Assembly: GCA_964036195.1 (NCBI GenBank)
Contig: OZ038453.1
Coordinates: forward strand, 1,984,001-2,048,000
DNA length: 64,000 nucleotides
From: Sphaerolaimus hirsutus
Lineage: Eukaryota; Nematoda; Chromadorea; Monhysterida; Sphaerolaimidae
Direction: 5' to 3'
In this document: positions 18,799-64,000 of the stretch, piece after piece
Numbering within the stretch: the first letter of the stretch is position 1
Layout: each line of letters begins with the position of its first letter
The notes under the pieces: generated by a model
The model's database searches: none
Seen by the model: only the letters and a program-made list of their open reading frames with translations
Told to the model about the DNA's origin: nothing
Program-made: the position numbers and the translations under genes

Positions 18799-18836
18799 TA
18801 GGTACCCACTACTCAGAGGCTTGCAAAAACTGACAC

Positions 18837-19350
18837 CCCAATGGGGACCCCCCTCCAAATGGCACCCCCCGGGGAACCCCCCAAAAGTGGCACCCCCTGG
18901 GAACCGCCCAAAAATGAGACCCCCTAGGGCCCCACAAATATGGCACCCCCTGAGGACCACCGAAAAATGGCACCCCTTAGGGACCCCCCAAAAATGGCAC
19001 CCCCTTGGGACCCCCCAAAATAGCACCCCCTGGGGACCCCCCAAACATGGCACCCCCTAGGAACCCCCACAAAAATGGCACCCCCTGGGGTCCCACCCAA
19101 AGTTGGCTCCCCCTGGGGACTCTCCAAAAATGGCACCCCCTGGGGACCACCCCAAAATGGCACCCCCTTAGGACCCCCCTGCAAAAAAAAATATAGCACC
19201 CCCCTGAGGACCACCAAAAAATGGCACCCCTGGGGACCACCCAAAAAATGGCACCCTATGTGGACCCCCTTGAAATGGCACCCCCATATGTACCTCCAGA
19301 AAATGGCACCCCCTGGAGACCCCCCAAAAATGGCACCCCATGGGGACCCC
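18837..19350. repeat. Minisatellite alpha (GGCACCCC units)
   Basis: Units of about 26-30 bp built on TGGCACCCCCTGGGGAC and a run of C then A. Many units are near 27 bp, so frames stay open on both strands (WHPLGTPQK on plus; Gly/Phe-rich on minus), but this is repeat structure and not a gene. Confidence 0.85.
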
Positions 19351-19765
19351 CTCTAAATCCTGTAAACACAGCCCCTAGTTTGGAAACTCCTGTAAACTCA
19401 GCCCCTAATTTGGAAACTCCTATAAACTCAGCCCCTAACTTGCAAACTCTTGTAAACTCAGCCCCTAACTTGCAAACTCCCATAAACTCAGCCACTTATT
19501 TGTAAGCTCCCATAAACTCAGCCTCTAATTTGAAAACTCCCATAAACTCAGCCCCCAATTTTGGAAACTCCTGTAAACTCAACCCATAATTTGGAAACTG
19601 CTGTAAACTCAGCCCTAATTTGGATACTCCAATAAACTCAGCCCCTAATTTAGAAACTCCCATAAACTCAGCCCCCAATTTGGAAACTCCCTTAAAATCA
19701 GCCCCTAATTTGGAAACTCCCATAAACTCAGCCCCTAATTTGGAAACTCCCGTAAACTCATTTTC
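19351..19765. repeat. Minisatellite beta (30-bp unit)
   Basis: Tandem units of 30 bp around AAACTCCCATAAACTCAGCC. The same unit returns at 22485-22690, on the far side of satellite gamma. Confidence 0.9.
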
Positions 19766-22480
19766 AGGTTTATGGTAATGTAGTGTGAAAATGGTATGAA
19801 TATTTCAAAAAATCACTATCATCAATCCACAAATGCATCAATTCACAATTTTCAATTTTTTAGCCCCAAGGGTTAGACTTAAAAGGTTATGGTAATGTAG
19901 AGTAGAAATGGAGTGCACATCTCAAATCACTGCAATAAAAAACCCACAAACGCATCATTTCACAAATTGAAAGTTTTTGTGCCCAGGGGTTCATTATCAG
20001 GGTTTTAGTAATGTGGTGTCAAAATGGAGTGCATATTTGAAATCGCTACAATCAGAAACCCACAAACACATCATTTTATGATTTGAAAATTTTTGGCCCT
20101 GGGGGTTCATTTTCAGGGTTATGGTAATGTAGTGTCAAAATGAAGTGCATATTTCAAATCAAGGCAATCAAAAAGCCACAAATGCATCATTTCACCATTT
20201 CTAATTTATTAGCCCCATGGGTTCAATTTAAGGCTTACAGTAATGTAGAGTTGAAATTGAGTCATTTCAAATCAGTGCAATAAGAAACCTGCAAAATGCA
20301 TCATTTTACAAATAGAAATTTTTGGGTCTAGGGGTTCAATTTCAGAGTTTTAGAAAATGTAGTGTCAAAATGGAGTGCATATTTGGAATCGCTACAATCA
20401 GAAACCCACAAATGCATCATTTTATGATTTGAAAGTTTTTGGCTTAGGGGGTTCATTTTTATGGTTATGGTAATGTAGTGTCAAAATGAAGTGCATATTT
20501 CAAATGAGTGCAATCAGAAACCTGAAAATGAATGATTTCACAAATTGAAAGTTTTTGGCTCCAGAGGTTCATTTTCAGGGTTATGGTTATGTAGTTTTCA
20601 GGGTTATGTAGTGTCAAAATGGATTGCATATTTCAAATCAGTGCAATTAGAAACCCACTTCGAATCATTTCACAATTTCTAATTTTTTAAGCCCTGGGCA
20701 TATTTGAAATAGCTACACTCTGAAACCCACAAATCCATCATTTTATGGTTTGAAAGTTTTTGGCCCAGGGGGTTCATTTTTAGGGTTATGGTAATGTAGT
20801 GTCAAAATGAAGTGCATATTTCAAATGAGTGCTATCAGAAACCCGAAAATGCATCATTTCTCAAATTGAAAGTATTTGGCCCCATGGGTTCATTTTTAGG
20901 GTTATGGTAATGTAGTGTCAAAATGGAGTGCATATATCAAATTGGTGCAATCATAGACCCAAATTTGAAATCAGTGCAATCAGAAACCCAAAAATGAATG
21001 ATTTCACAAATTGAAAGTTTTTGGCTCCAGAGGTTCATTTTCAGGGTTATGGTTATGTAGTTTTCAGGGTTATGTAGTGTCAAAACGGAGTGCATATTTC
21101 AAATCAGTGCAATTAGAAACCCACATTGAATCATTTCACAATTTCTAATTTTTTAAGCCCTGGGCATATTTGAAATCACTACACTCAGAGACTCACAAAT
21201 CCATCATTTTATGATTTGAAAGTTTTTGGCCCAGGGGGTTCATTTTAGGGTTATGGTAATGTAGTGTCAAAATGAAGTGCATATTTCAAATGAGTGCTAT
21301 CAGAAACCCGAAAATGCATCATTTCTCAAATTGAAAGTATTTGGCCCCATGGGTTCATTTTTAGGGTTATGGTAATGTAGTGTCAAAATGGAGTGCATAT
21401 ATCAAATTGGTGCAATCATAGACCCAAATTTGAAATCAGTGCAATCAGAAACCCAAAAATGAATGATTTCACAAATTGAAAGTTTTTGGCTCCAGAGGTT
21501 CATTTTCAGGGTTATGGTTATGTAGTTTTCAGGGTTATGTAGTGTCAAAACGGAGTGCATATTTCAAATCAGTGCAATTAGAAACCCACATTGAATCATT
21601 TCACAATTTCTAATTTTTTAAGCCCTGGGCGTATTTGAAATCACTACACTCAGAGACTCACAAATCCATCATTTTATGATTTGAAAGTTTTTGGCCCAGG
21701 GGGTTCATTTTAGGGTTATGGTAATGTAGTGTCAAAATGAAGTGCATATTTCAGATGAGTGCAATCAGAAACCCGAAAATGCATCATTTCTCAAATTGAA
21801 AGTATTTAACCCCATGGGTCCATTTTGAGGGTTATGGTAATGTAGTGTCAAAATGGAGTGCATATATCAAATCAGTGCAATCAGAAACCCAAATTTGAAA
21901 TCAGTGCAATCAGAAACCCAAAAATGCATCATTTTACAAATTGAAATTTTTTGGCCCCAGTGGTTCATTTTCAGGGTTATGGTAATGTAGTGTCAAAATG
22001 AAGTGCATATTTCAAATGAGTGCAATCAGAAACCTGAAAATGCATCATTTCTCAAATTGAAAGTATTTGGCCCCATGGGTTCATTTTTCGGGTTATGGTA
22101 ATGTAGTGTCAATGGAGTGCATATATCAAATCAGTGCAATCAGAAACCTAAATTTGAAATCAGTGCAACCAGAAACCCAAAAATGCATCATTTCACAAAT
22201 TGAAAGTTTTTGGCCCCAGTGGTTCATTTTCAGGGTTATGGTAATGTAGTGTCAAAATGGAGTGCATTATATATCAAATCAGTGCAATTAGAAACCCACA
22301 ATGCATCATTTCACAATTTGAAAATTTTGGCCCCATTTTGGGTTCAATTTCAGGGTTATCGTAATGTACTGTCAGAATGGAGTGCATATTTCAAATCATT
22401 GTAATCAGTAACCCACAAATGCATTATATCACAATTTATATTTTTTAGCCCTGGGGGCCTCACTTAAGGATTATGGTAAT
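19766..22480. repeat. Satellite gamma with 465-bp higher-order repeat
   Basis: Monomers of about 110-120 bp carry GGGTTATGGTAATGTAGTG, TCAAAATGGAGTGCATAT and AAACCCACAAATGCATCA. A variant marker (GCATATTTGAAATxxCTACAC) recurs at 20698, 21164 and 21629, which gives a higher-order period of 465-466 bp made of about four monomers. Confidence 0.85.
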
Positions 22481-29226: not shown

Positions 29227-29262
29227 TAGGTACCCACTACTCAGAGGCTTGCAAAAACTGAC

Positions 29263-30080
29263 ACCCCAGTGGGGACCCCCTCCAAATGGCACCCCCCGGG
29301 GAACCCCCCAAAAGTGGCACTCCCTGGGAACCACCCAAAAATAGGACCCCTAGGGCCCCACAAATATGGCACCCCCTGAGGACCACCAAAAAATGGCACC
29401 CCTTAGGGACCCTCCAAAAATGGCACCCCCTAGGGACCCCCCAATAATGGCACCTCCTGGGGACTCACCCACAGTTGGCTCCCCATGGACTCTCCAAAAA
29501 TGGCACCCCCCTGGGAACCCCCTCCCCAAAAAAAAAATGGCACCCCCTATGGACACACCCACAAAAAAAATAGCACCCCCCTGAGGACCACCAAAAAATG
29601 GCACCCCTGGGGACAACCCAAAAAATGGCATCCCATGGGGACCCCCTTGAAATGGCACCCCCATATGTACCTCCAAAAATGGCACCCCTTGAGTCCCTAA
29701 AAATGTCACCCCATGTGTACCCCCTCTAAATCCTGTAAACATAGTCCCTAGTTTGGAAACTCCTGTAAACTCAGCCCCTTATTTGGAAACTCCTATAAAC
29801 TCAGCCCCTCACTTGCAAACTCCCATAAACTCAGCCCCTATTTTGTAAGCTCCCATAAACTCAGCCTCTAATTTGAAAACTCCCATAAACTCAGCCCGTA
29901 ATTAGGAAACTCCTGTAAATGTAACCCATAATTTGGAAACTGCTGTAAACTCAGCCCTAATTTGGAAACTCCCATAAACTCAGCCCCTAATTTAGAAACT
30001 CCCATCAACTCAGCCCCTAATTTGGAAACTCCCTTAAACTCAGCCCCTAATTTGGAAACTCAAATAAACTCAGTCCCTAA
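29263..30080. repeat. Minisatellites alpha and beta, second block
   Basis: Alpha units (GGCACCCC) to about 29730, then 30-bp beta units, in the same order as the first block. Confidence 0.85.
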
Positions 30081-32075
30081 TTTGAAATCGCTACAATCAG
30101 AAACCCACAAACACATCATTTTATGATTTGAAAATTTTTGGCCCTGGGGGTTCATTTTCAGGGTTATGGTAATGTAGTGTCAAAATGAAGTGCATATTTA
30201 AAATCAAGGCAATCAAAAAGCCACAAATGCATCATTTCACAGTTTCTAATTTATTAGCCCCAGTGGTTCAATTTCAGGGTTTTAGTAATGTAGTGTCAAC
30301 ATGGAGTGCATATTTTAAATCTCTACAATCAGAAACCCACAAATGCATCATTTTATGATTTGAAAGTTTTTGGCCCAGGGGGTTCATTTTTAGGGTTATG
30401 GTAATGAAGTGTCAAAATGAAGTGCATATTTCAAATGAGTGCAATCAGAAACCCAAAAATGAATGATTTCACAAATTGAAAGTTTTTGGCTCCAGAGGTT
30501 CATTTTCAGCGTTATGGTTATGTAGTTTTCAGGGTTATGTAGTGTCAAAATGGAGTGCATATTTCAAATCAGTGCAATTAGAAACCCACATTGAATCATT
30601 TCACAATTTCTAATTTTTTAAGCCCTGGGCATATTTGAAATCGCTACACTCAGAAACCCACAAATCCATCATTTTATGATTTGAAAGTTTATGGCTCAGG
30701 GGGTTCATTTTTAGGGTTATGGTAATGTAGTGTCAAAATAAAGTGCATATTTCAAATGAGTGCTATCAGAAACCTGAAAATGCATCATTTCTCAAATTGA
30801 AAGTATTTGGCCCCATGTGTCCATTCTGAGGGTTTTGGTAATGTAGTGTCAAAATGGAGTGCATATATCAAATCAGTGCAATCAGAAACTCAAAAATGAA
30901 TGATTTCACAAATTGAAAGTTTTTGGCTCCAGAGGTTCATTTTCAGGGTTATGGTTATGTAGTTTTCAGGGTTATGTAGTGTCAAAACGGAGTGCATATT
31001 TCAAATCAGTGCAATTAGAAACCCACATTGAATCATTTCACAATTTCTAATTTTTTTAGCCCTGGGCATATTTGAAATTGCTACACTCAGAAACCCACAA
31101 ATCCATCATTTTATGATTTGAAAGTTTTTGGCCCAGGGGGTTCATTTTAGGGTTATGGTAATGTAGTGTCAAAATGAAGTGCATATTTCAAATGAGTGCA
31201 ATCAGAAACCCGAAAATGCATCATTTCTCAAATTGAAAGTATTTGGCCCCATGTGTCCATTTTGAGGGTTTTGGTAATGTAGTGTCAAAATGGAGTGCAT
31301 ATATCAAATCAGTGCAATCAGAAACCCAAATTTGAAATCAGTGCAATTAGAAACCCAAAAATGCATCATTTCACAAATTGAAAGTTCTTGGCCCCAGTGG
31401 TTCATTTTCAGGGTTATGGTAATGTAGTGTCAAAATGAAGTGCATATATCAAATCAGTGCAATTAGAAACCCACAATGCATCATTTCACAATTTGAAAGT
31501 TTTGGCCCCAAGGGTTCAATTTCAGGGTTATGGTAATGTACTGTCAGAATGGAGTGCATATTTCAAATAATTGTAATCAGTAACCCACAAATGCATCATA
31601 TCACAATTTATATTTTTTAGCCCCGGGGGTCTCACTTAAGGATTATGGTAATGTTATTGTCAACTCCCCTAATTTGGCAAACACCCATCAACTCAACTCC
31701 CATAAACTCAGCCTCTAATTTGTAAACTTGTGTCAACAGCCCCTTATTTTTAAACTTCTGTCAACTCAACCCTAATTTATAAACACCCATCAACTCAACC
31801 CTGAATTGTAAACTCAGCCCCGAAAAACTCAAGTCAACCCCCTATACATGTGCAATTGCATTCTTGGGAAGCAACTTTGCAAGAAATACTAACCCTGTTT
31901 GTCAAGATTGTAAGGGCTCGTGTTTGTAAAGGGCATTTGGTACTAATAAATAGTGACTGCATTGTGTGCAAAAACACACACGAATCGGGCAAAAAAATGA
32001 GGCGTGTGATTGTGCCTCCTATCTTTTGCATTGGGCATACTTTGCACGCGGCATACTTTGCATGCAGTTCACTCA
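30081..32075. repeat. Satellite gamma, beta units and tail, second block
   Basis: Gamma monomers to about 31650 (fewer than in the first block), beta units to about 31845 and the same unique tail to about 32075. Confidence 0.85.
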
Positions 32076-41021: not shown

Positions 41022-42075
41022 AACCCGAACCGACCCGAACTGAACCGAACTGAACTGAGAACCGAGCACTATTTTGGAACCGAGAACCGAGAACTAGTGA
41101 TGGAATGGCGCCATGGCGCTGGCGCCATTTGAGGGCGCCAAAGGGCGCCGCGCCATGGCGCCATTGGCGCTTGGCGCCCTTTTTCTGTGGCGCCCTTGGC
41201 GCCTGGCGCCCACTTTCTGAAAGGCGCCATGGCGCCCTTGGCGCTTGGCGCCCTTTCTCCGTGGCGCCCTTGGCGCCTGGCGCCCTGCCCTAAAAGGGCG
41301 CCAAAATGGCGCCAGCATGTTTCAAGGTGAGTGCTGCGTGTATGAATAAAAAAGGAAAAACGGGTCTGTGAATGATCAAAATTCACTGGAAAATAGACAA
41401 AGTGGTGTGAGTGGATGTATATGTTTCATCCAATTTTTATCAGATGCGTGTAACGGATCAGAAGCTGAGCATGATAGACCGGTGAACTTGCAAACTCGTA
41501 AATCAACGGATTGAAATTATCGGAATTCCGTTGTCGTCCGCTTCAAGAAAACATAAATTGGAAAATCTATTTGAAGTGCATTCATTGTTTTGTCGAATGA
41601 GAATTTTCAAAGTGTTTGAATTGAATTTCACGTGTGAGTGCGGTTTTTGCACAAAAGTTTGTTGCTAGTCTCATTTTTGCTGATTACATCCTGGAGAACA
41701 TGAATAAAGAAGTGAATGTGTGCACTACAGTGCTGGAGAAGCATTTTTAGCGCACGCAGGGTATTCTACTCGCTTTTTTATCCTGGCGCCATTGGCGCCT
41801 GGCGCCCTTCTTTTCAATTGGCGCCATGGCGCCCTTGGCGCTTGGCGCCCTCTTTCCGTGGCGCCCTTGGCGCCTGGCGCCCACTTTCCGAATGGCGCCA
41901 TGGCGCCCTTGGCGCTTGGCGCCCTTTTTCTGTGGCGCCCTTGGCGCTTGGCGCCCAGTTTCCGAATGGCGCCATGGCGCCATTGGCGCCTGGCGCCCTT
42001 TTTTCTGGCGCTTTTCCATCACTACCGAGAACCAGAACTGAGCTTGAGAACCGAACCGGAACGGAGAACCTGCCC
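41022..42075. repeat. AACCGA word array, split by element B
   Basis: GAACCGA and GAACTGA words run from 41028 to 41094 and resume at 42025-42065. This is probably one terminal array of an unresolved element into which element B inserted. Confidence 0.6.
41095..42024. mobile_element. hAT-like element B (TAGTGATG ends, GGCGCC words)
   Basis: Ends TAGTGATGG and CCATCACTA with the 8-bp duplication CCGAGAAC (41087-41094 and 42025-42032). Dense arrays of TGGCGCCATGGCGCC and TTGGCGCTTGGCGCC at both ends keep Ala/Trp/Arg-rich frames open on both strands by repetition alone. The middle is non-coding. Confidence 0.9.
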
Positions 42076-52300: not shown

Positions 52301-55300
52301 CTGCCAAGTTCTCTTCTGTTGGAACGGAGCTAACGAATGAAAAAAAATATATAAAAAAACGGTTGTTTGAACGGTAAAACGGTAGTTTGAACGGTCAAAT
52401 TCTCCACAAGCAACGTTGAAAATGTAGATAACTAGGGCGTGGCACGCACGGACGCAGCGAAATGTCCATTTTTCTTTTAGTATGATTTTCTTTTTCTATT
52501 TCTAGCGTCCGCGTGGGACACAAGTTTCGTTGTTCGCTCTATTCACGAGCGAATTCTAACTCTCCGATTTTGTAGGATGGAATGTCCGCCGACTTTACCT
52601 GGCAAGTGTGTTAACATTGGCTCCTTCCCTTGGGTCAGTCACTTTTCCATCATAAATTTTGACATAATCACTCAATTTTTCAGTTTCAAAATCAGTGAAC
52701 TCTAACAAAATATGATGGTTGCTTGGAGCTGTGATAGCCTGCAGAATATAGCTCATTACCGTATTTATCCATGTAAAGCACCCGGGTGCTATACAAAATT
52801 GAGACCCTTTCCAGCAACCTTTTTTAAAACTTGTATAACACCTGGGTGTTAGGTCGAGGCAGGCCTGATATGCACATCTGCCCGATACGCACATGTGCCC
52901 GTTTTTTACACTTGACACTTTTTCAAGTGATTTTCAGATGAGTTAAGTGAAAAAAAGTTGCGCAATGACATTAGTGAACGTTTTTCACTTCACTCATATC
53001 TGAAAATCACTTGAAAATGTGTCAAGTGCAAAAAACGGGCACATGTGCGTATCGGGCACATGTGCGTATCAGTGCACCCCCGTTAGGTCAGGGGGTGATA
53101 TACACGGAAACACTCCAAATCCAGCGGATAGTATATTAGACATACGCGCCACATTAATTGCAAAAGGAATTTGCTTTCGCAGTGAACTACTGTATATCCT
53201 CGAATAAGTCCCCTGGGGAGTTATTTTTTCTTCAGAACTTTTTGAGGGGGGAGTTAATCGAGAGGGGGGAGTTATCCGAGGGGGGAAGTTATTTTTTCAC
53301 CAGAACATTAAGTAAAATGCATGATAAATATATTGTATAAATAGGGTTGAATTAGATGCATGAACCTGTAAGTCACTATAGAAATTCCTTTGATCATGCG
53401 ATGAAATGAATCGTAGTTAGCATTGAAAAAATCTCTGGGAGATTTATATTTAAAAAATCTCAGAAAATCTCAGAAAATATAAGATTTTCTGAGATTTATA
53501 TTTTTTCCATGACTTTCCAGAGTGATTTAATTATATTTTCTCCTGATTGAGAAAATCTCTCAAGAAAATCTCTCTATATTTGCCCATTTTCACCATCAAA
53601 TTCACTAGTTCATGATCTTTTTTACCAATTTTCATCTATTTTTAACTATATATTTGCTTATATACCTATTTTTGGCCATTTTCCCCCTATTTGTAGTTTT
53701 TTTCCCCGTTTTTCTGTTCTATGGCATGCAAGAGACAATAAAAAAGTTATCTGAAATACATTTTCTGTACTCAAGTACTTTCAAGAAGTATACATTAAAG
53801 TGAGTACTGGTCCTTTTTCAGAGGAAATTTAGATGTATTTACTTATTACTCAAGTATATGTATTTTTGAGTAAATGTAAGTATGTTTTTATTCCTCAACC
53901 ATACTGAACCCCTGCAGTCCCATGAAGACCCAGTGCCCAAGTACGGTACATTGGCACTTGATGTTGCTACTTGTGCAATGGGTTAACTTAACCATGGGTT
54001 CTAGCCATTTTAACAAATAAAGAGTTGACAGCATGCCTTGGAAATTTTATCAAATTTTGGTGAAAAAGTCATCTTATAAATTCTGTGGGGATCATCACAC
54101 ATGAATGCAATGTATTCTACTATGAGGAAAAATGTGCCTAAACCATATTTTTGTTCATCATTCAGATACTAAATACGTGGTAAAATAGTACAATGTGTAC
54201 CATCAGTAGACAATATGCTGCTTAATATCACATGAAATTGTGAATGAAAAGGTGAATTAAGGTGAAAAGTGAATTTAACAACACATAATGTCCTTAATAT
54301 CTACTCTCAATGGTTCAAACACCTTGAAATATGGTTTCAATTATACTTTAAGTTGAGAGATTTTATGAAATTTTTTTGAACTGCAAGAGATATTCTCAGA
54401 GATTTAATTATATTTTCTAAAATGACCCAAGAGATTTAATTATATATTTTTTCTTGAGAGATTTTCTGAGATAGTATTTAATTATATTTTCTCAAAATCG
54501 GTTGTTTTTTTCAATGCTAATCGTAGTGAAGATATGCTGAAATAAATACACCCTTTTAGGTAAAACCTACATAAAAACGTTGTTTTGTATATGGACATCT
54601 TAGTCACCCATCTAAGAGGGGGAGTAATTCAAGACGGGAGTTCTTATTTCCTCAGTCTTCTAACAGGGGAGAGTTATTAGAGGGGGGGGAGTTATTCGAG
54701 GGGGGGGGGCTTAAATGGGGATATACAGTATATTGAAAGTTTTCTATATATTTTTATAATACAGGAACACTCAATCCAGGGGCAGTCCCAGACACTGTAA
54801 AGTGTATAATGTCATGTAACCATTTTGGAATCAAAATGCAACTAAGCAAAGCAGTTATTTTTTTGGTTCCCAGCATGCAGGAATTATTTACAATGAGTGG
54901 CATGCGCCACACACAATATTTAAGCAATTCAAATCGGGGGTGCTATGCAGCTGCGTAACACCCGGGGTGTTGTGCATGGGGGGTCCTATACATGGAGAGA
55001 TATGGTACAGACAGTGATTTATGCATGTACACACTAGTAGTGATGTAAAAAGCGCCAGACTTTTGGCGCCAAGCGCCAAAAGCGCCATGGCGCTTTTCTG
55101 GAACTAGCGCCAAGCGCCAATGGCGCCACAGCAAAATGGCGACAAGCGCCAAAAGCGCCATGGCGCTTTTCTGGACCTTAGCGCCAAGCGCCAAAGGCGC
55201 CAGGGGGCCATGGCGCCAAGCGCCAATGGCGCCAGCGCCAAAATGATATTGCCTTTTATTGTACAGGTGAGACAAAGTACTATTTTCTTCACTTTCAATA

Positions 55301-58300
55301 ACTTGTATTGCCTCCAAAAACACAAAGATGGTCAAAAAATGGAAATCAATGTGGGTGTACACACTAGTTTACCAACGCGGCACGTCGATCAAAAATGTAA
55401 ACTGAAACGCGACGCGTCGCGCGTCGGTTTACATTTTTGATCGACATGTGTACTTTAGTTTACTGTGGTGTTTCACTTTCTGGGGTTAGTGGTTTCGGCA
55501 AGTCACAGAAATGCGACGCGTTGCCAGATTATTTTTTATGTGAAACGTAATGGGCAAACTGAATGCAATTTTCAGCGACGCGTCGCTAGCAACGCGTGCG
55601 ACGCAGAAAGTGTTGCACATAAGATGTAAACTACTGTTTTATGAATTTCATCTGAATCATGTAATTTGTGCTTGTTATAGCATGTATGTCTTATTTTGAT
55701 GCTTATAATGATTGTTAATTATCATTCTGCTCATAAAGTTGTTACTTTTTGCACTTTAACAGTATGATAGTCGCATGAAACGCACCGGCAAACTGAACGA
55801 CTTTTGCGACGCTTGCGACGCTACCATAACCCTGCTCAATTAAAAAAAGGCGACGCGTCGCCAGTTTACTTTTACTGTTTAACTCTAAATTAAACCGTCG
55901 TAAATCGTCGAGAGAGTCGCCAAAGATGTCCCAAAATTGTCGCTTTTTCTTGAGTTTGACCGCGACCCCCACCGATTTCAAAGTAACTTCATTTGTCACT
56001 TGTAGGTCGGATTTGAGCCATTTGTTAACTGACATGTGCAGAAAAAAATCGCAGTTTTAATGGTGTTTTTTACAAGTCCTAACTCTTTTCCAAAAAAATT
56101 TTATGAATTTTTTAATATTTTGCCATAAATTGTGGCGACGCAGAAAAATGTATAAATTCAAACATATAGTGAACTAAAAAAGGGAATACATGTAAAAGTT
56201 CATACATATAGTAAACTTTAAAAAGGAATACATATAAGATGTTTGTAACCAACAGCTAATAATGTGAGAAATTAAATAAAAGAATATCAGGCATAGTAGA
56301 ACAATTTACTAGTGCTACAAGCAGTATTTTTGTTTATATCTGCATCTTCTGACTCAAATTGACTCAGCCTGATGTTGTCCCTCCAGTGTAAATACAAATG
56401 TACATTGACAAGAAAGAAGCCAGATAACATGGATCCAATCCTGAATGTGCCAATCCGACGGGACGTTGACAAAAGAGAAGCGCGCCCCTCAGGGATGCAA
56501 TCAAGCAGTGGATGATGACGCCCACCGGTCATGTTGCGTGGGTGAATCCCGCTGACTGCTGAATTTACAACTATGTTGAATATAAAAATCAAACTGAATA
56601 ATTTCCGTTGCAGTGGCAGTTAGCATTAAAGTGGCACTGGAATGGTAAACTGATGTAACAAATACAAAAAATTCATTTTCATGCTATCTGCTACAGCTAC
56701 ACTACATTTTTCGCTTGCAACCGGTCATGATGGTCATTCTGTAGTACACTGTCGTTGAATGGACAATTTTCATTCACTATTAGATTTTTGGCTGATTAAT
56801 TCTTTTTTAATTGTGATTAAATCATAATTCGCCAAGTCTTTTGTTTCACGCCGCGAAAAATTGTGTGATGTGTGCATCTCATGTTCCTCTTTCATGTGTG
56901 ATTTTTTTTTTGCATTCGGGCTTTCCGTTCACATGCTAGTGATTTATTTGCGTTTAATTGAAATAAAATCATAAAAAATTGAAAGTTTATATTTCATGTC
57001 CGCCGTGTACACCAATCGATAGCGCAATGAAAACTGATAATTTAGAACATTTCAATAAACAAAAAAGTGTAACAGGTGATTTTATAAAAATTTATATACA
57101 CAAAAAACTGATAAATTCAATAAAAAATCCAATGTTGCACTTAAAAATATTTTAAAAATTTTGACAACATCTACACAACGTACTGTACACGATGACGCAA
57201 AAAAATTGCATGAGCAATGCACCGTTCTTCCACAATTAAAGAAATTAGAAATTAATGTTTACAGCGTAAATTCACATCACAGGCAAACTTGAAAAAAATA
57301 AAGATGGTGGCCTAAACTCCGCCCACTTTTACTATGCGTGAATTTAGCCGGTAAACTAAAAAATTGAGTTTACCGCCAGTAAACTGAAAACGCCAGTAAA
57401 CTGAAAACACCAGTAAACTAGTGTGCGTGGGGCCAATAAGTTTTCTTGCTCAACACACAAGGGTAACTAAGACTGGTTCAAATAGATAGCAAATTGCCTC
57501 TCTGAAGCTGTAGAAGCTGAAAGATTGTCTGGGGGTTGGGTGTTGCAGCGTTTCAATATAATAGATATTTCAAGATTTACAGTGCAAACTGTGAGATAAC
57601 AGGGTAAAAACAGCTAAACACCTTCCCGGTCACGTCCGGCAGCCATTTTTTGATCTTACTTCTTATATCCTATCCCCAGTTCTAGGGCGCCCCTGAGGCT
57701 GAAACTTGGGGGAGATATTGTCGCAACCCCCCTCTACTTCGCATGAATTGGGGGGGGGGGGGGGGGGTCGCGGCGACCCCCCCCCCCCAATTCATGCGAA
57801 GTAGAGGGGGGTTGCGCCAATATCTCCCCCAAGTTTCAGCCTCGGGGGCGCCGTATAACTGGGGATAGGATATAAGAAGTAAAATAAAAAAATGGCTGCC
57901 GGACGTGACAGGGAAGGTTTTTAAATTACATATCTGTGTAAAAGATCTATGTAAAAAATTTACATACATGACCAAAAATTGCTGAAAATAAGCAATAAGT
58001 CACATGAACACCGCGGTGCAATTATCACTCTCTGGCGCTTTTTTGGCGCTTTAAAAAATGGTAGCGCCAAGCGCCAATGGCGCCACTGGAAAGTAGCGCC
58101 AAGCGCCAAAAGCGCCATGGCGCTTTTCAGAAACACGGCGCCAAGCGCCAATGCCGCCACAGCATTTTAGCGCCAAGCGCCAAAAGCGCCATGGCGCTTT
58201 TTGCTTTGGCGCTAGCGCCAGGCGCCAGCGCCATGGCGCTTTCACATCACTACACACTAGTTTACTGACAGATCTTGGTAAACTCATAAATCTGGTTTGA

Positions 58301-61300
58301 ATGCATTTGAGTTTACTAGAATGAGCTCTTCTTAGTCCCCATCAACTGCAGTTGACATATGCCTTATTCTGGTAAACTCAAATGTGTTCAAAGCCGATTT
58401 ATGAGTTTACCAAAATCTGGCAGTAAACTAGTGTATGCAGCGCCTTTCATTGTAAATTTAAAACCAACCCAATAGCAATCCAACTTGCTGTCGTGGTTCC
58501 AGGGATAATCTGGACTGGTTATCCAATTTGACCCACCCACCTCAGCTGAGAGTGACTGCTCACAACAATGGCAACCTGCCAAAAATGCAAAAAAATTGCA
58601 AAGACAAGTTTTAGGATGTTTGTGATTTTGCTTTCCACAGAAAAAAACACAAACCAGCGATAAATGAAACATTCAATGCTCTGTGATGTTTGGTGGAATC
58701 AGTATAGAACCACACTGTCAGCTTATTTGAATAAGATTCTATCTTTTCTGAAACTGTTGTGTTCCATGTGCCATCCAATCTGAAATTTAGTGGATAATGA
58801 GCCCAATGAGTTCAGCCCAATGAGACATTATTCAACTGTCATTAGAATTCCAAAAATGGGTGTTTTTGAGAAAGTATAATTTCAACAAAATCTCTCAAAA
58901 AATATGAGTAAATATCTCTGAAAAACACAGAGAACATAAATTTATATATATATTTATTTGTTTTCATAAAGTATATAGGTTTAATAAATGATTAATCCCA
59001 CCAGAAAAGTCTGGAGAAAATATCAATAAAGTTTGGATGGACTAAGCACATCTCTCAACCCAAGGTCCAATATTGTATTCTGGGCGCTACAGTATTGTGA
59101 TACAAGGTTTCTTGCTGTAACTTAGCATATAAATCTAATGAGATTTTTGGAACGCTAACTGTGATTACCGTAAAAGACGATTCATGTGCATATTGTAACG
59201 ATTGTGTGAATCCTTGGCCTTCACTGGGTCAGTCACTTCACCATCATAAACAGTAACAAGATCATAATCACCACCTCCAATGGTCAAATTAGTGAACTTT
59301 AGCAAAATGTAGTGGTCTTCTGGGGGCACTCCCAGACCCTGTAAAAAGCCATGTAAAATGAAAAATGTCATGCAAAGTGTCTAAAGTCATTGAAAATACC
59401 CTGCAAAATGCAAACTGTACGTTTGACATTTTGCAGGGCTTTTTCCATAACTTCAGACACTTTGCCATGACATTTGACATTTTACAAGGCTTTTTACAGG
59501 GTCTGGGAGTGGCACCTGGTGCAGTGATTACCTATACAATAATGGTCCTTTGAGTTCAGTTTTTTTTATTGAAATTGTTTGCACATTTTTAAACCTACCC
59601 AAAAACAATCTGAATAAATGCAGTAGCCTTTTGGATAATCTGGACTGGTCAACCATTTTAGCTTCCCCACCTCAGCTGTCATAAATTTACCCCCACATTG
59701 ATGGCACCCTGTAATGTCACACATGGTGAAATGATAAGATTAAACTCGTTTGATTATTCAAAACTGATCAACAAACAACATAAGGCCCAATTCACAGCAG
59801 AATGAAAAATAGCACTGATAAGCAAAATTGAACCGCACTGTAAATAGCATTGATAACATTAAAGGGAACTCCCAGACCCTGTAAAAAGCCCTGTAAAATG
59901 TCAACTGTCATGCAAAGTGTAAAAAGACATGGAAAATGCCCTGCAATATGGCAAAGGTCATAGGCGGCGCCAGGTCTGAATTTGTGCTTGTGACATTCAC
60001 AATCACATTGGCCAAAAGTTGACCTTCTGACACTTTTTACTAGGTAAACATAGATTATCATGCTTTTAGTTGGTATTTCTGCTTGTGACACCGAAAATTC
60101 CGCTTGTGACATTGACAAGTGCACAGGCACTTTTACGCCGCCTATGGCAATGGTACGTTTGCCATTGTGCATGGCATTTTCCATGACTTTCGACACTTTG
60201 CATGACATTTGACATTTTACAGGGCTTTTTACAGGGTCTGGGAGTGGCACTAGAATGCATAAAGAAGGCGCAGCTTACTGACAACTCGCTGCCAGCTGGG
60301 AGACAAAAAGCTGACAAGCAGTTGTTTACACTTGGCAGCAAGTTGTCAGCATATTTCAGTGAGCTGTCTGTCAGCTGTCAATTTCTTGTTTCAATGCTAT
60401 TCCTTGGTTGTAATGTACCTAGTGTAAGTGCCACTTTAAACGCACTTTCAAGCCATTCGTAGCTGATGCTGAATCCAGCATGTCTAGGATTAGTGTCCAT
60501 TTCGGTTGATGCATGGTACTGTGAAAAAATTTGCAGAGTAAAATAATTTATGATAATAAGTGACTAGTGTGGTTCTCTCCAACCTCTGCTTGGGTTTTGC
60601 AGTATTCTATACTTTCACAGTTTCATGTTACAATAGTATTATAAGTATGAATAGACTGGAACTGTCAAAGGTACCCTGTCAACAGCAGGTACCACTCCCA
60701 GACCCTGAAAAAGCCATGTAAAATGTAAAATGTCATGCAAAATGTCAAAAGTCATGCAAAATGCCCTGCAAAATGGCAACTCGGTTTGCGGGGCATTTTC
60801 GATGACTTTTGACACTTTGCATGACATTTGACATTTAACAGGGCTTTTTACAGGTTTCTGGGAGTACCCACTGGACTAGTATTCCAGAGGCACCAACAGT
60901 GTCAGAAAAGTGGTGCCAAGAACCAATTGCACCAGGCACAATGATGAAAAATCTTTTTACTTTTTATAGTCCTTAAAGACCCACAAATTATCAAGGACAA
61001 AAATAATGTAACAAAAAGAGGAATAACAATACATGTACCCAACGATGGGTAAGTTCTCCAAAAAAAAACACTTTCTGTGTTTTGAGTTTTTCAAAAATGA
61101 ATACCTGTGTTTTGAGTTTTTTTCTCGAAAAAAACTTGAGTAACTCTGTTTTTGTTTCTGTGTTTTTTGTAAAAACTCAAGTTTTTTGAGTTTTTTTCTA
61201 AAAAACTCGAGTTTTCCCACCGAATATTTCGATTTACAGCATTTCGATCTAGAAACAGTGGTTTTCTTATAAAATATTGGTTTTACACATGTTTTAACCC

Positions 61301-64000
61301 CACATAACATTTGTGTATTCATTCAAGTGCCAAGAAAGTCCATAAAACAGTCCATCAACATCACAACACCAGCAAGAAAATGCCCAGAAACAACAATTTA
61401 CGCAGTACTCCAAAATTCTTCAATGGATGTGCACTGTATGGAAGACTACAGAATTGATTTGAACTGCAACTACCATTTACCTCAAAATACCCCCATGGGG
61501 GTTTATTATTTCATCAGAAAGTTTTGTAAGGATCATAGAAAATACCGTATATCCTCGAATTAACCCCCCCTTGAATTAACCCCCCCCCCTCGAAATACCC
61601 CCCCTAAATTTCGGCTGAGGAAATAATAAACCCCCCCCTCGAAATACCCCCCCTAAGATTGAGTGTAACGTGAACGTACATGACAAACACCGCAGTTTGT
61701 GATCTGTACAATGCAGAACACATGTTAAAACTGATGATTAAGTGACGTTAGGGTAGGGGTTTTGTGTATATGCAGTTATATATGTTTATAAACACATATA
61801 CATCAATGAAATTGTTCGATTTTTTTACGTCCGCGTATAGGGGATTTCCGAAAATTTCTGGCGAAATAATAGACCCCCCCCCCCTCGAATAAAGCCCCCC
61901 CCCTCGAATTATCCCCCCCTCAAATTGTGCTGGCGAAATAATAAACCCCCTGGGGGTATTTCGAGGTAATACGGTAGTAGGCATTTACGTACCCAAAACA
62001 GGTTATAAATGCGTACAAACAGGATACATGTAGATAGCTACACAACCTAGTACAGTCTATGTGTAGCTGTGATGCAAATCAGCAGTAATAAATACATCAT
62101 GTACATTGAATACATGTTGTACATCATCCTGGAGGGGGCTATTTCGAGGGAGGGGGGGGGCTTATTATTTCACCAGTCCATTTTGAGGGGGGTTAAATCA
62201 AGGGGGGTTAATTCGAGGTAATAAAGTATACTTAAATGTCGAAACTTAAATTGTCAAATCCACCGTGAGATGTGCATGCCATCTTGAATTTCTTTTTTGT
62301 ACCATTATAAAATATGAATACATTATGTATACTCGGCGTACGTGATACTCTGCCCTCGCACTGATTTATGTCTCGTGTTGGAAGCGTGCCAATGATTATT
62401 AAATCATGCGATTTCCGTAAAAAAAAGTTGAAAAAATTCATCGATGTGAATATGTTAATGAATAACATTATAACAGCAATCAATTTTGTCATCTTTTTAT
62501 GAAACTCGCACGCGTTAACCATCGTTGGCAAACTTCCAGCGGGAACCACGCGTGCAAGGTGTAAAGTAACCGGAGTATACATATTTACATACTATACATG
62601 CTTATTTTATCTTGTTTAGTTTAACTGAATGATTGTGCATGCAACCGCTTTGCTGAAAAAAACACAAAAACTCAAAAAAAAATTTCTGTGTTTCCGTGTT
62701 TCTGTGTTTCTGTGTTTACCAAAAAAAAACTCATTTGAGTTTTGAGTTTTTCAAAATTTATGAGTTTCCGTGTTTCTGTGTAAAACAAAAACTCATTGAG
62801 TTTCTGTGTTCAATTTCTGTGTTTTTTCCATCGTTGCATGTACCATAATTGCTTAAACTAACCACTGGTATTTTATTCAAACCTCTGAAAAGCGCTACTT
62901 CAAGACTGCTCAACCAAAGTCAACCAGGGAGCAGTCCCAAGCCCTGTAAAGCGTAAAGTAAAGTGTCAAATGTAAAGTTGAATGCAGAGTAAAGTGTCAA
63001 TCAAAACAAAATATGAAAAGATTTTATTACTGAATTTTGCATGACAATTGACAGTTTACTCTGCATTTATTTGACTTTACATTTGACACTTTACTTTACA
63101 CTTTACAGGGCTTGGGACTGGGACCAAATCTTCAAGTCAACAAAAATACAATGTCATTGAAGACAACAAGTGGAAAAAGTGACTCACCCTTAAATAAATA
63201 CTTTTTGCCTCTTCAAATGTAACATTTTTGTCCGTATACTGTGCTCTCAACATGTGTGATGAGTTCCATCTGAATTCCATCGGCCCACCAGTGGGAAAAT
63301 GGTTTGCGATATGCAGGTAGCCACCAGGGGGCACTCCCAGACCCTGTAAAAAGCCCTGTAAAATGTCAAATGACATACAGGCACTAAACTCAACTCGGTT
63401 GCCATTTTGCAGGGCATTTTCCATGACTTCTGACACTTTGCATGACACTTGACCTTTTTCAGGGCTTTTTACAGGGTCTGGGAGTGGCACCAGGTCCCAC
63501 TGGGATTAGGGTCACATTCATGATCAAGTTGTAGCCGGGTTTTCTGGTGGGTGGAATCACTTTTGGAATTGAACTGATCAAATGTTTGCAATTTGTAATG
63601 CAGCACAGGTAACATGAAAATTATGACACTTTGCTGACAGTAAGCTGACAACCACTTGTTTACTGTTGTCAGCGAGCTGCAGCAGTTTCTAAATGTGGTA
63701 TTATGACCTGTCAGCTTGTTGACAATGTGTATTACAATAAAAAAGATTTTATTACTTATTATTATCAAAAAAAAATTTTATCACTGAAGTCTGCATGACA
63801 ATTAGCAGTTTACTTTGCATTTGACTTTACATTTGACACTTTACTTTACACTTTACAGGGCTTGGGACTGCCACCTGAAGTCTGTGACAATTTATTTGTT
63901 CCCATTCTTGAAGGATTGTCTTAAAACTGTTTAACCTTCTTGACAACACAGTTTCTGAATTTTCAATTCCCCCCCCAAACCTTGGGTCGCTGTTAGGTGG
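49264..64000 (-). CDS. Multi-CUB-domain gene, 3' half
   Basis: Minus-strand exons with matching phases define the end of a secreted or surface CUB protein: 63875-64000 (partial), 63491-63573, 63188-63333, 60868-60952, 60419-60518, 59599-59708, 59516-59531, 59169-59328, 58655-58779, 58469-58575, 52599-52738, 50216-50331 and 49264-49352 (TAA). Two complete CUB modules (B and A), the end of a third and a Cys-rich tail are clear. The three most upstream exons are less certain. CUB domains mediate extracellular protein or carbohydrate binding. Each module follows the same intron plan: a phase 0 intron after the DC(Y/F)W motif, a phase 2 intron after an Arg and a phase 1 intron between modules. All intron expansion is transposon sequence; the largest intron is 5.7 kb. 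The 5' end is outside the window. I do not assign an orthologue. Confidence 0.85.
49495..50200. repeat. GAAGTG word array in the last intron of the CUB gene
   Basis: GTGAAGTG, GAAGTGTG, CACTTCAC and GATCAGG words recur from just inside the intron donor (50215) to about 49500. This array uses GAAGTG where the 48.4-48.8 kb array mostly has GAAGCG. Confidence 0.55.
50216..50331 (-). CDS. CUB module A, C-terminal exon
   Basis: The acceptor TTTACAG and one-base phase continue the phase 2 donor at 52599. It encodes LSGNVSVSSIISSSNQLSVL and ends FKASYIAG before the phase 1 donor GTTCGT. It aligns with the last exon of module B (LTVWFYTDST, NVSFIAG), the terminal strands of a CUB fold. Confidence 0.8.
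50494..51380. mobile_element. hAT-like element F3 (ACGTTT words)
   Basis: Ends CAAAGTTGG and ACAACTCTG; flanking 8-mers GTCGGCAG and GTCGGCAA match at 7 of 8. The scaffold is as in F1 and F2, but the words are TACGTTT and AAAACGTA, with a few exceptions. It lies in a CUB-gene intron. Confidence 0.85.
51482..51820. mobile_element. hAT-like element K (CAGGGTTGG ends)
   Basis: Ends CAGGGTTGG and CCAACCCTG with the 8-bp duplication ATTGGAAT (51474-51481 and 51821-51828). The body consists of ATTTTATTTTTATTTTATTC-like words. Related AT-rich bodies lie inside the duplicated segments at 780-940 and 39855-40005. Confidence 0.9.
51874..52114. repeat. MITE, family S copy 2 (GTGAAATGATGAC words)
   Basis: Inverted ends GGAATTAGAGCTCAGCGTCG and CGACGCTGAGCTCTAATTCC, then words GTGAAATGATGAC in both arms. 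The core matches 106-297, where the words are GTAAAATTCCAGC. Confidence 0.8.
52115..52598. other. CUB-gene intron, no further exon seen
   Basis: Contains a half copy of palindrome O (52185-52315) and otherwise no supported feature. Confidence 0.5.
52599..52738 (-). CDS. CUB module A, middle exon
   Basis: The acceptor CTGCAG opens in phase 0 at AITAPSNHHILLEFTDF and continues through DYVKIYDGKVTDP, the conserved acidic turn of CUB domains, to a phase 2 donor GTAAAG. It has no MITE N insertion, whereas module B has one immediately after the equivalent VITAP. Only about 20 bp separate its acceptor from the transposon that fills the upstream intron. Confidence 0.9.
52867..53070. repeat. Palindromic MITE CC
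   Basis: Arms of about 95 bp run from GATATGCACATC through CGCACATGTGCCCG and TACACTTGAC to the inverse at CGGGCACATGTGCGTATC, with CACATGTGC doubled at the end. Confidence 0.75.
53190..54728. mobile_element. MITE, family R, split by hAT-like element J
   Basis: CTGTATATCCTCGAATAAG on the left and GGGGATATACAG on the right with TA on each side. G-rich blocks lie next to both ends. Confidence 0.75.
53418..54519. mobile_element. hAT-like element J (TAGCATTGAAAAAA ends)
   Basis: Ends TAGCATTG and CAATGCTA with the 8-bp duplication ATCGTAGT (53410-53417 and 54520-54527). Subterminal arrays consist of AGAGATTTTCTGAGATT and its complement. No transposase. Confidence 0.9.
55360..57423. mobile_element. 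Element E (CACACTAGTTTAC ends, GCGACGCG words)
   Basis: The ends CACACTAGTTTAC and GTAAACTAGTGTG match those of MITE D, so D may be its short derivative. Both ends carry GCGACGCGTCGC words. Minus-strand frames at 55742-56035 and 56287-56592 are open but not recognisable, so an autonomous role is unproven. Confidence 0.6.
57620..57918. repeat. GC-rich near-perfect palindrome (MITE)
   Basis: Arms of about 140 bp run from ACCTTCCCGGTCACGTCC through AAACTTGGGGGAGATATTG to a G-run and C-run centre. The same family ends at 10674 and about 49075. It is far too long and too symmetrical for a terminator. Confidence 0.8.
58469..58575 (-). CDS. CUB module A, N-terminal exon
   Basis: The acceptor TTTGGCAG opens with a 2-nt phase that fits the phase 1 donor of module B. 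It encodes CHCCEQSLSAEVGG, WITSPDYPWNHD and KLDCYW, the first half of a CUB with its disulphide cysteines, ending in phase 0 at GTTGGT. Confidence 0.85.
58655..58779 (-). CDS. CUB module B, C-terminal exon
   Basis: The acceptor ATTTCAG adds one base to the phase 2 donor at 59169. It encodes LDGTWNTTVSEKIESYSN, KLTVWFYTDST and ALNVSFIAG, ending in phase 1 at GTTTGT. It reads straight through the position where the preceding CUB module has an extra intron (after VQW). Confidence 0.9.
59169..59328 (-). CDS. CUB module B, middle exon, starting in a MITE end
   Basis: It encodes PPEDHYILLKFTNL and DYDLVTVYDGEVTDPVKA, ending in phase 2 at GTAATC. Its first bases belong to MITE N and its target duplication. 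With the AG of GGTCTGGGAG as acceptor, the exon opens TG CCC CCA and joins the 16-nt exon 59516-59531 in phase. An upstream AG (TTTTTACAG) would keep the same codons only if joined to a phase 0 donor. Confidence 0.85.
59329..59515. mobile_element. MITE N inside a CUB exon (introner-like)
   Basis: A 187-bp near-palindrome with ends CACTCCCAGACCCTGTAAAA and their inverse. On the gene strand it begins GTGCCACTCCCAG, with GT from the target duplication, and ends CTGGGAG. The flanking 8-mers ACCAGGTG and CCCAGAAG share five bases. Removing it leaves an ungapped CUB sequence equal in length to module A. Confidence 0.8.
59516..59531 (-). CDS. CUB module B, 16-nt microexon
   Basis: GTAATCACTGCACCAG between an acceptor (TTGTATAG) and the GT of MITE N encodes VITAP plus one base, matching AITAP of module A. 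Confidence 0.75.
59599..59708 (-). CDS. CUB module B, N-terminal exon
   Basis: The acceptor CATTACAG opens with a 2-nt phase. It encodes CHQCGGKFMTAEVGK, WLTSPDYPKGY and SDCFW, then the phase 0 donor GTAGGT and a 67-nt intron. It closely parallels 58469-58575. Confidence 0.9.
59867..60248. mobile_element. MITE N copy carrying a small insert (Z)
   Basis: Ends ACTCCCAGACCCTG and CAGGGTCTGGGAGTGG. At about 59960-60146 an insert with ends ATAGGCGGCG and CGCCGCCTAT splits it, flanked by GGCAAAGGT and GGCAATGGT. The copy lies in the intron between the third-from-last CUB module and module B. A truncated M-type MITE (60270-60410) follows. Confidence 0.7.
60419..60518 (-). CDS. CUB module upstream of B, last exon
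   Basis: The acceptor TTTCACAG opens in phase 0 at YHASTEMDTNPRHAGFSISY, a typical CUB C-terminal strand, and ends in phase 1 at GTACAT, as between the other modules. Confidence 0.8.
60692..60867. mobile_element. MITE N copy at a CUB donor site
   Basis: On the gene strand the exon ends CAGTGG and the intron starts GTACTCCCAG, the MITE terminus. Its other end lies 174 bp before the acceptor at 60519. The intervening part of the intron holds a fragment of element P. Confidence 0.7.
60868..60952 (-). CDS. CUB module upstream of B, penultimate exon
   Basis: One-base phase after AAAAAG, then IIVPGAIGSWHHFSDTVG and GILVQW, ending in phase 0. In modules A and B this and the next exon are one piece, so the intron after VQW is extra here. 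Confidence 0.7.
61471..62228. mobile_element. MITE, family R, host copy R13b
   Basis: TACCATTTACCTCAAAATAC on the left and TTAATTCGAGGTAATAAAGTA-type end on the right. The interior is the same subfamily as 37402-37834, in inverse orientation, and is split by R13a. Confidence 0.75.
61543..61976. mobile_element. MITE, family R, nested copy R13a with known empty site
   Basis: TA, CCGTATATCCTCGAATTAAC and, at the right, GGTATTTCGAGGTAATACGG, TA. Comparison with R8 shows a single TA at the insertion point, so the target duplication is TA. Confidence 0.85.
62932..63120. mobile_element. MITE N-prime (CAGTCCCAAGCCC ends)
   Basis: Ends CAGTCCCAAGCCCTGTAAAG and the inverse, with AAAGTAAAGTGTCAAATG words. 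It is a subfamily related to MITE N. A right half copy lies at 63773-63870, directly at the donor of the exon that begins beyond the window. Confidence 0.7.
63188..63333 (-). CDS. CUB gene exon starting in a MITE N end
   Basis: Opens TG CCC CCT after the AG of GGTCTGGGAG, then GGYLHIANHFPTGG, PMEFRWNSSHM and EEAKSIYLR to a strong phase 0 donor GTGAGT. The domain type is not certain; the PMEFRW strand resembles late CUB strands. Confidence 0.65.
63334..63490. mobile_element. MITE N inside coding sequence, second case
   Basis: A 157-bp copy. On the gene strand it starts GTGCCACTCCCAG and ends CTGGGAG, flanked by ACCTGGTG and CCCTGGTG (7 of 8 identical). Excision of the element and one repeat restores a continuous frame (GTG GGA CCT GGT GGC TAC). 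Confidence 0.8.
63491..63573 (-). CDS. CUB gene exon upstream of the second N insertion
   Basis: After TTTGATCAG, one frame reads PTRKPGYNLIMNVTLIPVGP and continues perfectly into 63188-63333. A second frame reads FNSKSDSTHQKTRLQL, which looks like a CUB end. The first agrees with the MITE excision logic and the second with the phase of the exon at 63875, so the frame is unresolved. Confidence 0.45.
63875..64000 (-). CDS. CUB gene exon, cut by the window edge
   Basis: Open over all 42 codons (SETVLSRRLNSFKTILQEWE, INCHRLQ), ending in phase 0 at GTGGCAGTCCC, where the GT again abuts a MITE N-prime terminus. The domain is not recognised. Confidence 0.45.

Follow-up and report, generated by a model that had tools for sequence, protein, structure and literature searches.

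A near-palindromic transposon family predicted to form exactly spliced introns in coding exons of the nematode Sphaerolaimus hirsutus

Can a transposon that lands in a coding exon serve as an intron there? A tandem CUB-domain gene, whose nearest solved structures are cubilin and the neuropilins, raises this question on the minus strand of the 64-kb stretch of Sphaerolaimus hirsutus DNA analyzed here (the window, C4:1984001-2048000, in an assembly of 348,482,957 bases, ~348 Mb, in 762 contigs). A preliminary description of this DNA had noted that a MITE splits codons of CUB module B and that the sister module A is uninterrupted. Both observations hold, with the limits of the element (MITE B) revised to 59323-59515: a codon of module B is split by MITE B between two copies of CAG, and the joined module aligns at the DNA level with the insertion-free module A without a gap across the joint. 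This paralogous module is the only empty site compared for MITE B. No relatives of the CUB protein were found in a large protein collection, and no Rfam families or tRNAs were found in the window.

The best predicted intron at this site runs from 59515 to 59320, with the GT coming from the element and the acceptor AG from the second CAG. Excision of MITE B together with one CAG gives the exact joint VITAP|EDHYILL with nothing added and leaves VITAPEDHYILLKFTNL in a single frame, scoring 50.3 bits against the Pfam CUB profile; when the 196 nt are kept, the frame shifts. The preliminary description had proposed an intron at 59515-59329, with a GT from the target duplication, an AG from the terminal repeat and nine added bases (Val-Pro-Pro). 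Its donor stands, although the element's own first two bases, rather than the duplication, form the GT. The AG that it named is also present, but the Val-Pro-Pro junction scores only 42.6 bits, 7.7 bits lower, and the AG of the right-hand CAG gives exact removal instead. The earlier interpretation is therefore partly supported, being right in kind and wrong at one splice site.

Table 1. Positions of the CUB-gene exons, the element copies and the target duplication in the window.
Feature	Position	Strand	Remark
CUB module A, second exon	52600..52738	-	insertion-free; paralogous empty site
CUB module A, first exon	58469..58575	-
CUB module B, last exon	58655..58779	-
Exon piece right of MITE B	59169..59319	-	151 nt
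Target duplication, right copy, CAG	59320..59322	-	proposed acceptor
MITE B, predicted introner copy	59323..59515	-	193 nt; 7.9% from family consensus
Target duplication, left copy, CAG	59516..59518	-	ends upstream exon piece
Exon piece left of MITE B	59516..59531	-	16 nt; V I T A P and first base of E
CUB module B, first exon	59599..59708	-
Family copy between exons	59868..60250	-	383 nt, longer than usual; probably carries a nested insert
CUB-like module C, end	60446..60518	-
Family copy between exons	60694..60865	-	diverged
CUB-like exon interrupted by MITE C	63188..63559	-	start guessed
MITE C, in CUB-like exon	63328..63490	-	163 nt; duplication CTG, 63493-63491 and 63327-63325

Four copies of the family lie in the window, all within 59323-63490, along with one end at 54784 that has two mismatches. 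One of them, MITE C, is a second copy interrupting an exon of the same gene, a case absent from the preliminary description; the CUB-like module obtained by joining its flanks reaches no Pfam family. Several other repeats were noted in the window. A second, related MITE family is present at 62925-63125 and 63801-63877, with ends like CAGTCCCAAGCCCTGTAAAG, and its copy near 63877 is preceded by CAG and starts GTGGCAGTCCC, also a possible donor. An inverted repeat at 57615-57923 has 147-nt arms that are 95% complementary and 15 nt apart, long tandem arrays at 18824-22437 and 29252-31814, ~10 kb apart, share similar units (27, 30 and 116 nt, plus multiples), and GGCGCC-rich palindromic repeat arrays with a period of 74 are found at 41150-42011, 55064-55242 and 58044-58239.

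A genome search for further copies, which the preliminary description had put forward as a check, returned 1,124 exact 19-nt 5´ ends, 605 after CAG and 519 after CTG; the exact 28-nt 5´ end occurs 179 times in the genome. Among the 72 copies with the exact 28-nt end that were read from the window or from fetched loci, a set that includes a few segmental duplicates of each other, 62 follow CAG (37) or CTG (25), and in 43 the triplet is repeated directly behind the 3´ end. The repeated triplets and the CWG preference together indicate a 3-bp CWG target duplication. One copy recurs at four loci (L083, L084, L085 and L103) with an identical left flank, indicating that element and flank were duplicated together. 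No viral contigs carrying the repeat were found.

From 62 elements of 150-215 nt, drawn from 79 duplication-bearing sites, we built a family consensus of 189 nt (mean divergence 8.7%). It is a near-perfect palindrome whose arms differ only at positions 2, 4 and 93. Two of these three differences lie at the tips, giving GT at one end and CCCC before CAG at the other. Since copies were selected by their left end, the left tip is fixed by selection of the copies and the right tip is free; at the right tip, C was present at both deciding positions in 58 of 78 distinct elements, and the symmetric form in one. Among inner-repeat near-matches outside the chosen copies (n = 76; fetched stretches and window), 25 had a GGGGC tip and 16 a GTGCC tip, and the genome as a whole has 789 exact GGGGC tips at CWG. 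Based on the right-tip and GGGGC counts, we take the asymmetric form to be the usual one. The family is thus short, with terminal inverted repeats, a target duplication and many copies, as MITEs are, and for the predicted introns the similarity between copies reaches both splice boundaries, as in introners. In 10 of 11 listed cases, all CAG-flanked, the predicted intron equals the element plus one duplication; the 11th is MITE C, whose duplication is without AG.

We also searched for insertions in other genes, joining the flanks at copies with intact duplications and seeking homology across the joint. The ORFs examined comprised 50 sense ORFs from 44 sites and then 47 of 49 from 29 sites, all CAG; on C1, loci with an intact duplication were 29 of 40 for CAG and 6 of 20 for CTG. 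Domain matches extending across the joint were obtained for carnitine octanoyltransferase (E = 6e-14), mitochondrial ribosomal protein S7 (MRPS7; 1e-13), an acid lipase (5e-10), PRMT5 (2e-7) and a second CUB gene. Among solved structures, human PRP8 was matched with E = 1e-34 and gap-free at the joint, MRPS7 with 1e-15 and a single-residue gap placed five residues ahead of the joint, and the octanoyltransferase, the lipase and PRMT5 (0.004) again over the joint. Weaker over-joint matches were to phospholipase C delta (E = 0.002) and a COMM domain (E = 0.02, under the cut-off). These matches all come from CAG loci that carry the element in sense orientation. Counting the focal site, 9 of the 45 distinct CAG sites whose duplications are intact showed homology across the joint, a fraction that counts conserved domains alone and does not give the exonic share. 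In all 11 cases checked, retaining the element introduced a frameshift or an in-frame stop. Over-joint homology at CAG sites thus places the family in coding exons at apparently new positions, as for introners, and the transposon-driven intron gain suggested by the preliminary description is well supported both at the focal site and at other genes, with splicing itself predicted.

As controls, antisense ORFs gave one match far under the cut-off among 43 (HCO3_cotransp, E = 0.035) and no match among 10 of the 57 second-set ORFs. Sense ORFs at seven CTG sites yielded one match to Glyco_transf_11 (L124, E = 1.7e-4), which begins close to the joint, all others having E > 0.03; CTG sites were tested less than CAG sites, and support for them consists of the weak L124 match and MITE C. 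Twelve further loci look coding without homology support (L073, L098, L058, L107, L082, L089, L095, L088, L078, L076, L037 and L010). Two acid lipases, L122 (intron 326 nt, left triplet changed to CTG) and L093, have an element-derived intron at the same codon, and the shared position indicates that this intron predates the duplication of the lipase gene.

The PRP8 piece has three matches on C1 within 64 kb (C1:22176519-22239917; L108 and L109), near 22.177, 22.195 and 22.240 Mb, each split at the joint, and the third place also has a CAG-flanked 5´ end; no uninterrupted PRP8 match is listed in the assembly. In the two copies read, the retained element amounts to 66 codons with one in-frame stop each, at different points. 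This conflicts with the open frame of 223-224 aa with which the PRP8 pieces are each listed. PRP8 is expected to be single copy, and we note its presence at three neighboring places, with the element in all of them. MRPS7, like PRP8 an essential gene, has a single genome match (C6, 0.321 Mb), which the joint divides in two, and no intact match is listed; a stop flagged in the longer MRPS7 match appears to lie where the match runs into the element.

CAG and CTG are complementary and thus expected at equal frequency beside an oriented element. Genome-wide, copies with both ends exact were flanked by CAG/CAG in 54 cases, CTG/CTG in 28, CTG/CAG in 14 and CAG/CTG in 6. The excess of CAG among matched duplications (54 vs 28, p = 0.005) was retained after removal of segmental duplicates (49 vs 27, p = 0.015, a rough count by eye). 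In the same set, the right-hand triplet was CAG in 68 copies and CTG in 34 (p = 0.001), and the left-hand triplet CAG in 60 and CTG in 42 (p = 0.09); for the left end alone, the counts were 605 and 519 (p = 0.011). As the introner model predicts, the proposed acceptor shows the strongest bias, and we infer that selection favors the CAG orientation. Mixed CTG/CAG duplications were considered as a trace of selection for AG and set aside (6 vs 4 for the reverse at fetched loci; 14 vs 6 in the genome, p = 0.12). ORF length over the joint did not differ significantly between sense and antisense (p = 0.11 and 0.08) and is no exon marker. Sense ORFs of at least 100 aa were found at 13 of 24 CTG sites and 22 of 45 CAG sites; with ORFs as long as those at CAG sites, sense CTG copies may also be exonic, perhaps using an acceptor GGGAG| in the terminal repeat. 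Homology support did not differ significantly between CAG sites (9/45) and CTG sites (1 or 2 of 24; p = 0.15 or 0.31).

That acceptor is the basis of another reading of the focal site, in which the same intron would end at GGGAG| and add nine bases (Val-Pro-Pro). The junction is in frame at both window copies, is the only in-frame acceptor noticed at the CTG-flanked MITE C, and codon addition is known in some introners (PMC9860276, Fig. 2F legend). At the focal site we consider it improbable, given the 7.7-bit drop in CUB score, the homologues of PRP8 and octanoyltransferase, which are without a three-residue insert at the joint, and the right-hand CAG excess, which would be unexpected. CTG-flanked copies like 63490-63328, with no AG in the duplication, may nevertheless use it.

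It is still less probable that the genes are simply broken by the element, as pseudogenes or with a retained insertion and no splicing. With PRP8 at three neighboring places some copies could be dead, but flanking frames are open and conserved, intact PRP8 and MRPS7 matches are missing from those listed in the assembly, and the CAG excess also speaks against this reading. A jump of the element into a pre-existing intron seems scarcely credible: nothing favors such an intron at the focal site, the shared lipase intron merely predates one gene duplication, and against it stand a predicted intron made up of the element and one duplication with no remainder and the intronless module A at the corresponding position.

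We therefore return to exact removal, and regard it as very likely that MITE B is a copy of an introner family, a near-palindromic transposon that inserts at CWG and is spliced out exactly with one CAG. The element, its duplication, palindrome and copy number are observed, as is the rejoining of conserved coding sequence by exact removal in several genes. In the mechanism we propose, a short near-palindromic DNA transposon would insert at CWG and generate a 3-bp duplication; the copies presumably moved as DNA transposons. Upon sense insertion at an exonic CAG, the donor CAG|GT would arise from the left CAG plus the element's first bases, and the acceptor CCCCCAG| from its CCCC followed by the right CAG, so that the spliceosome could remove the element with one CAG and restore the original frame. 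We accordingly predict that splicing uses the outer GT and the duplicated AG. The usual donor is GTRAGT, and the donor here, GTGCCA, is weak after its first bases. An inner pair in the element, GTAAAA...TTTTTACAG, is stronger by eye but gives a frameshift at the focal site. The RNA of 59531-59320 is predicted to fold into one long stem (-135.7 kcal/mol vs a shuffled mean of -50.1) with both predicted splice sites at its foot, and we speculate that the stem helps the donor that is weak beyond its first bases.

A broader reading, to which we give even chances, is that splicing broke the symmetry of a palindromic transposon, that sense insertions at CAG mend themselves as exact introns, and that core genes, including PRP8, have been hit. 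If true, introns have been placed in PRP8, the center of the spliceosome that must remove them; the function of PRP8 and MRPS7 as targets would depend on exact removal. The origin of new introns is an old question, and the family offers many candidate gains in one animal genome. A rule by which CAG gives an exact intron and CTG does not would make selection on splicing measurable from DNA.

PIF/Harbinger MITEs are short, with inverted repeats and a 3-bp duplication that is usually TWA. The present family is similar in shortness, inverted repeats and duplication length but differs in its CWG, and we set aside membership in that group, as 62 of 72 copies follow CWG in place of TWA. A literature search for CWG target duplications, with most subscription papers outside its reach, gave no relevant match. 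What is new to us, with no claim that the family is unpublished, is the host, the CWG rule, the tip-asymmetric palindrome and the PRP8 copies.

Judged by its sequence features, the family would clearly belong to animal introners, with the focal site a clear member. Introners were found in only two taxonomic groups of animals in a broad survey (Gozashti et al., 2022, PMC9860276), and the parts of that survey drawn on here describe target duplications that can supply a splice site and some families that add codons. The copepod Eurytemora affinis has an intron burst that includes GA and GG donors, for which no transposon was named (Robertson, 2017, PMC5714493); the present family would likewise account for many idiosyncratic introns in an animal, but with GT donors and a clear element. 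As with the introners in those parts of the survey (PMC9860276), there are many near-identical elements whose ends coincide with those of predicted introns, with target duplications and terminal inverted repeats, and, as in Chrysochromulina (PMC9860276, Fig. 2C legend), one splice site would come from the element and the other from the duplication. The family differs from the introners described there in its animal host, in an element that is near-perfectly palindromic over its whole length, and in a 3-bp CWG duplication, the examples sized in those parts of the survey being 4 and 8 bp.
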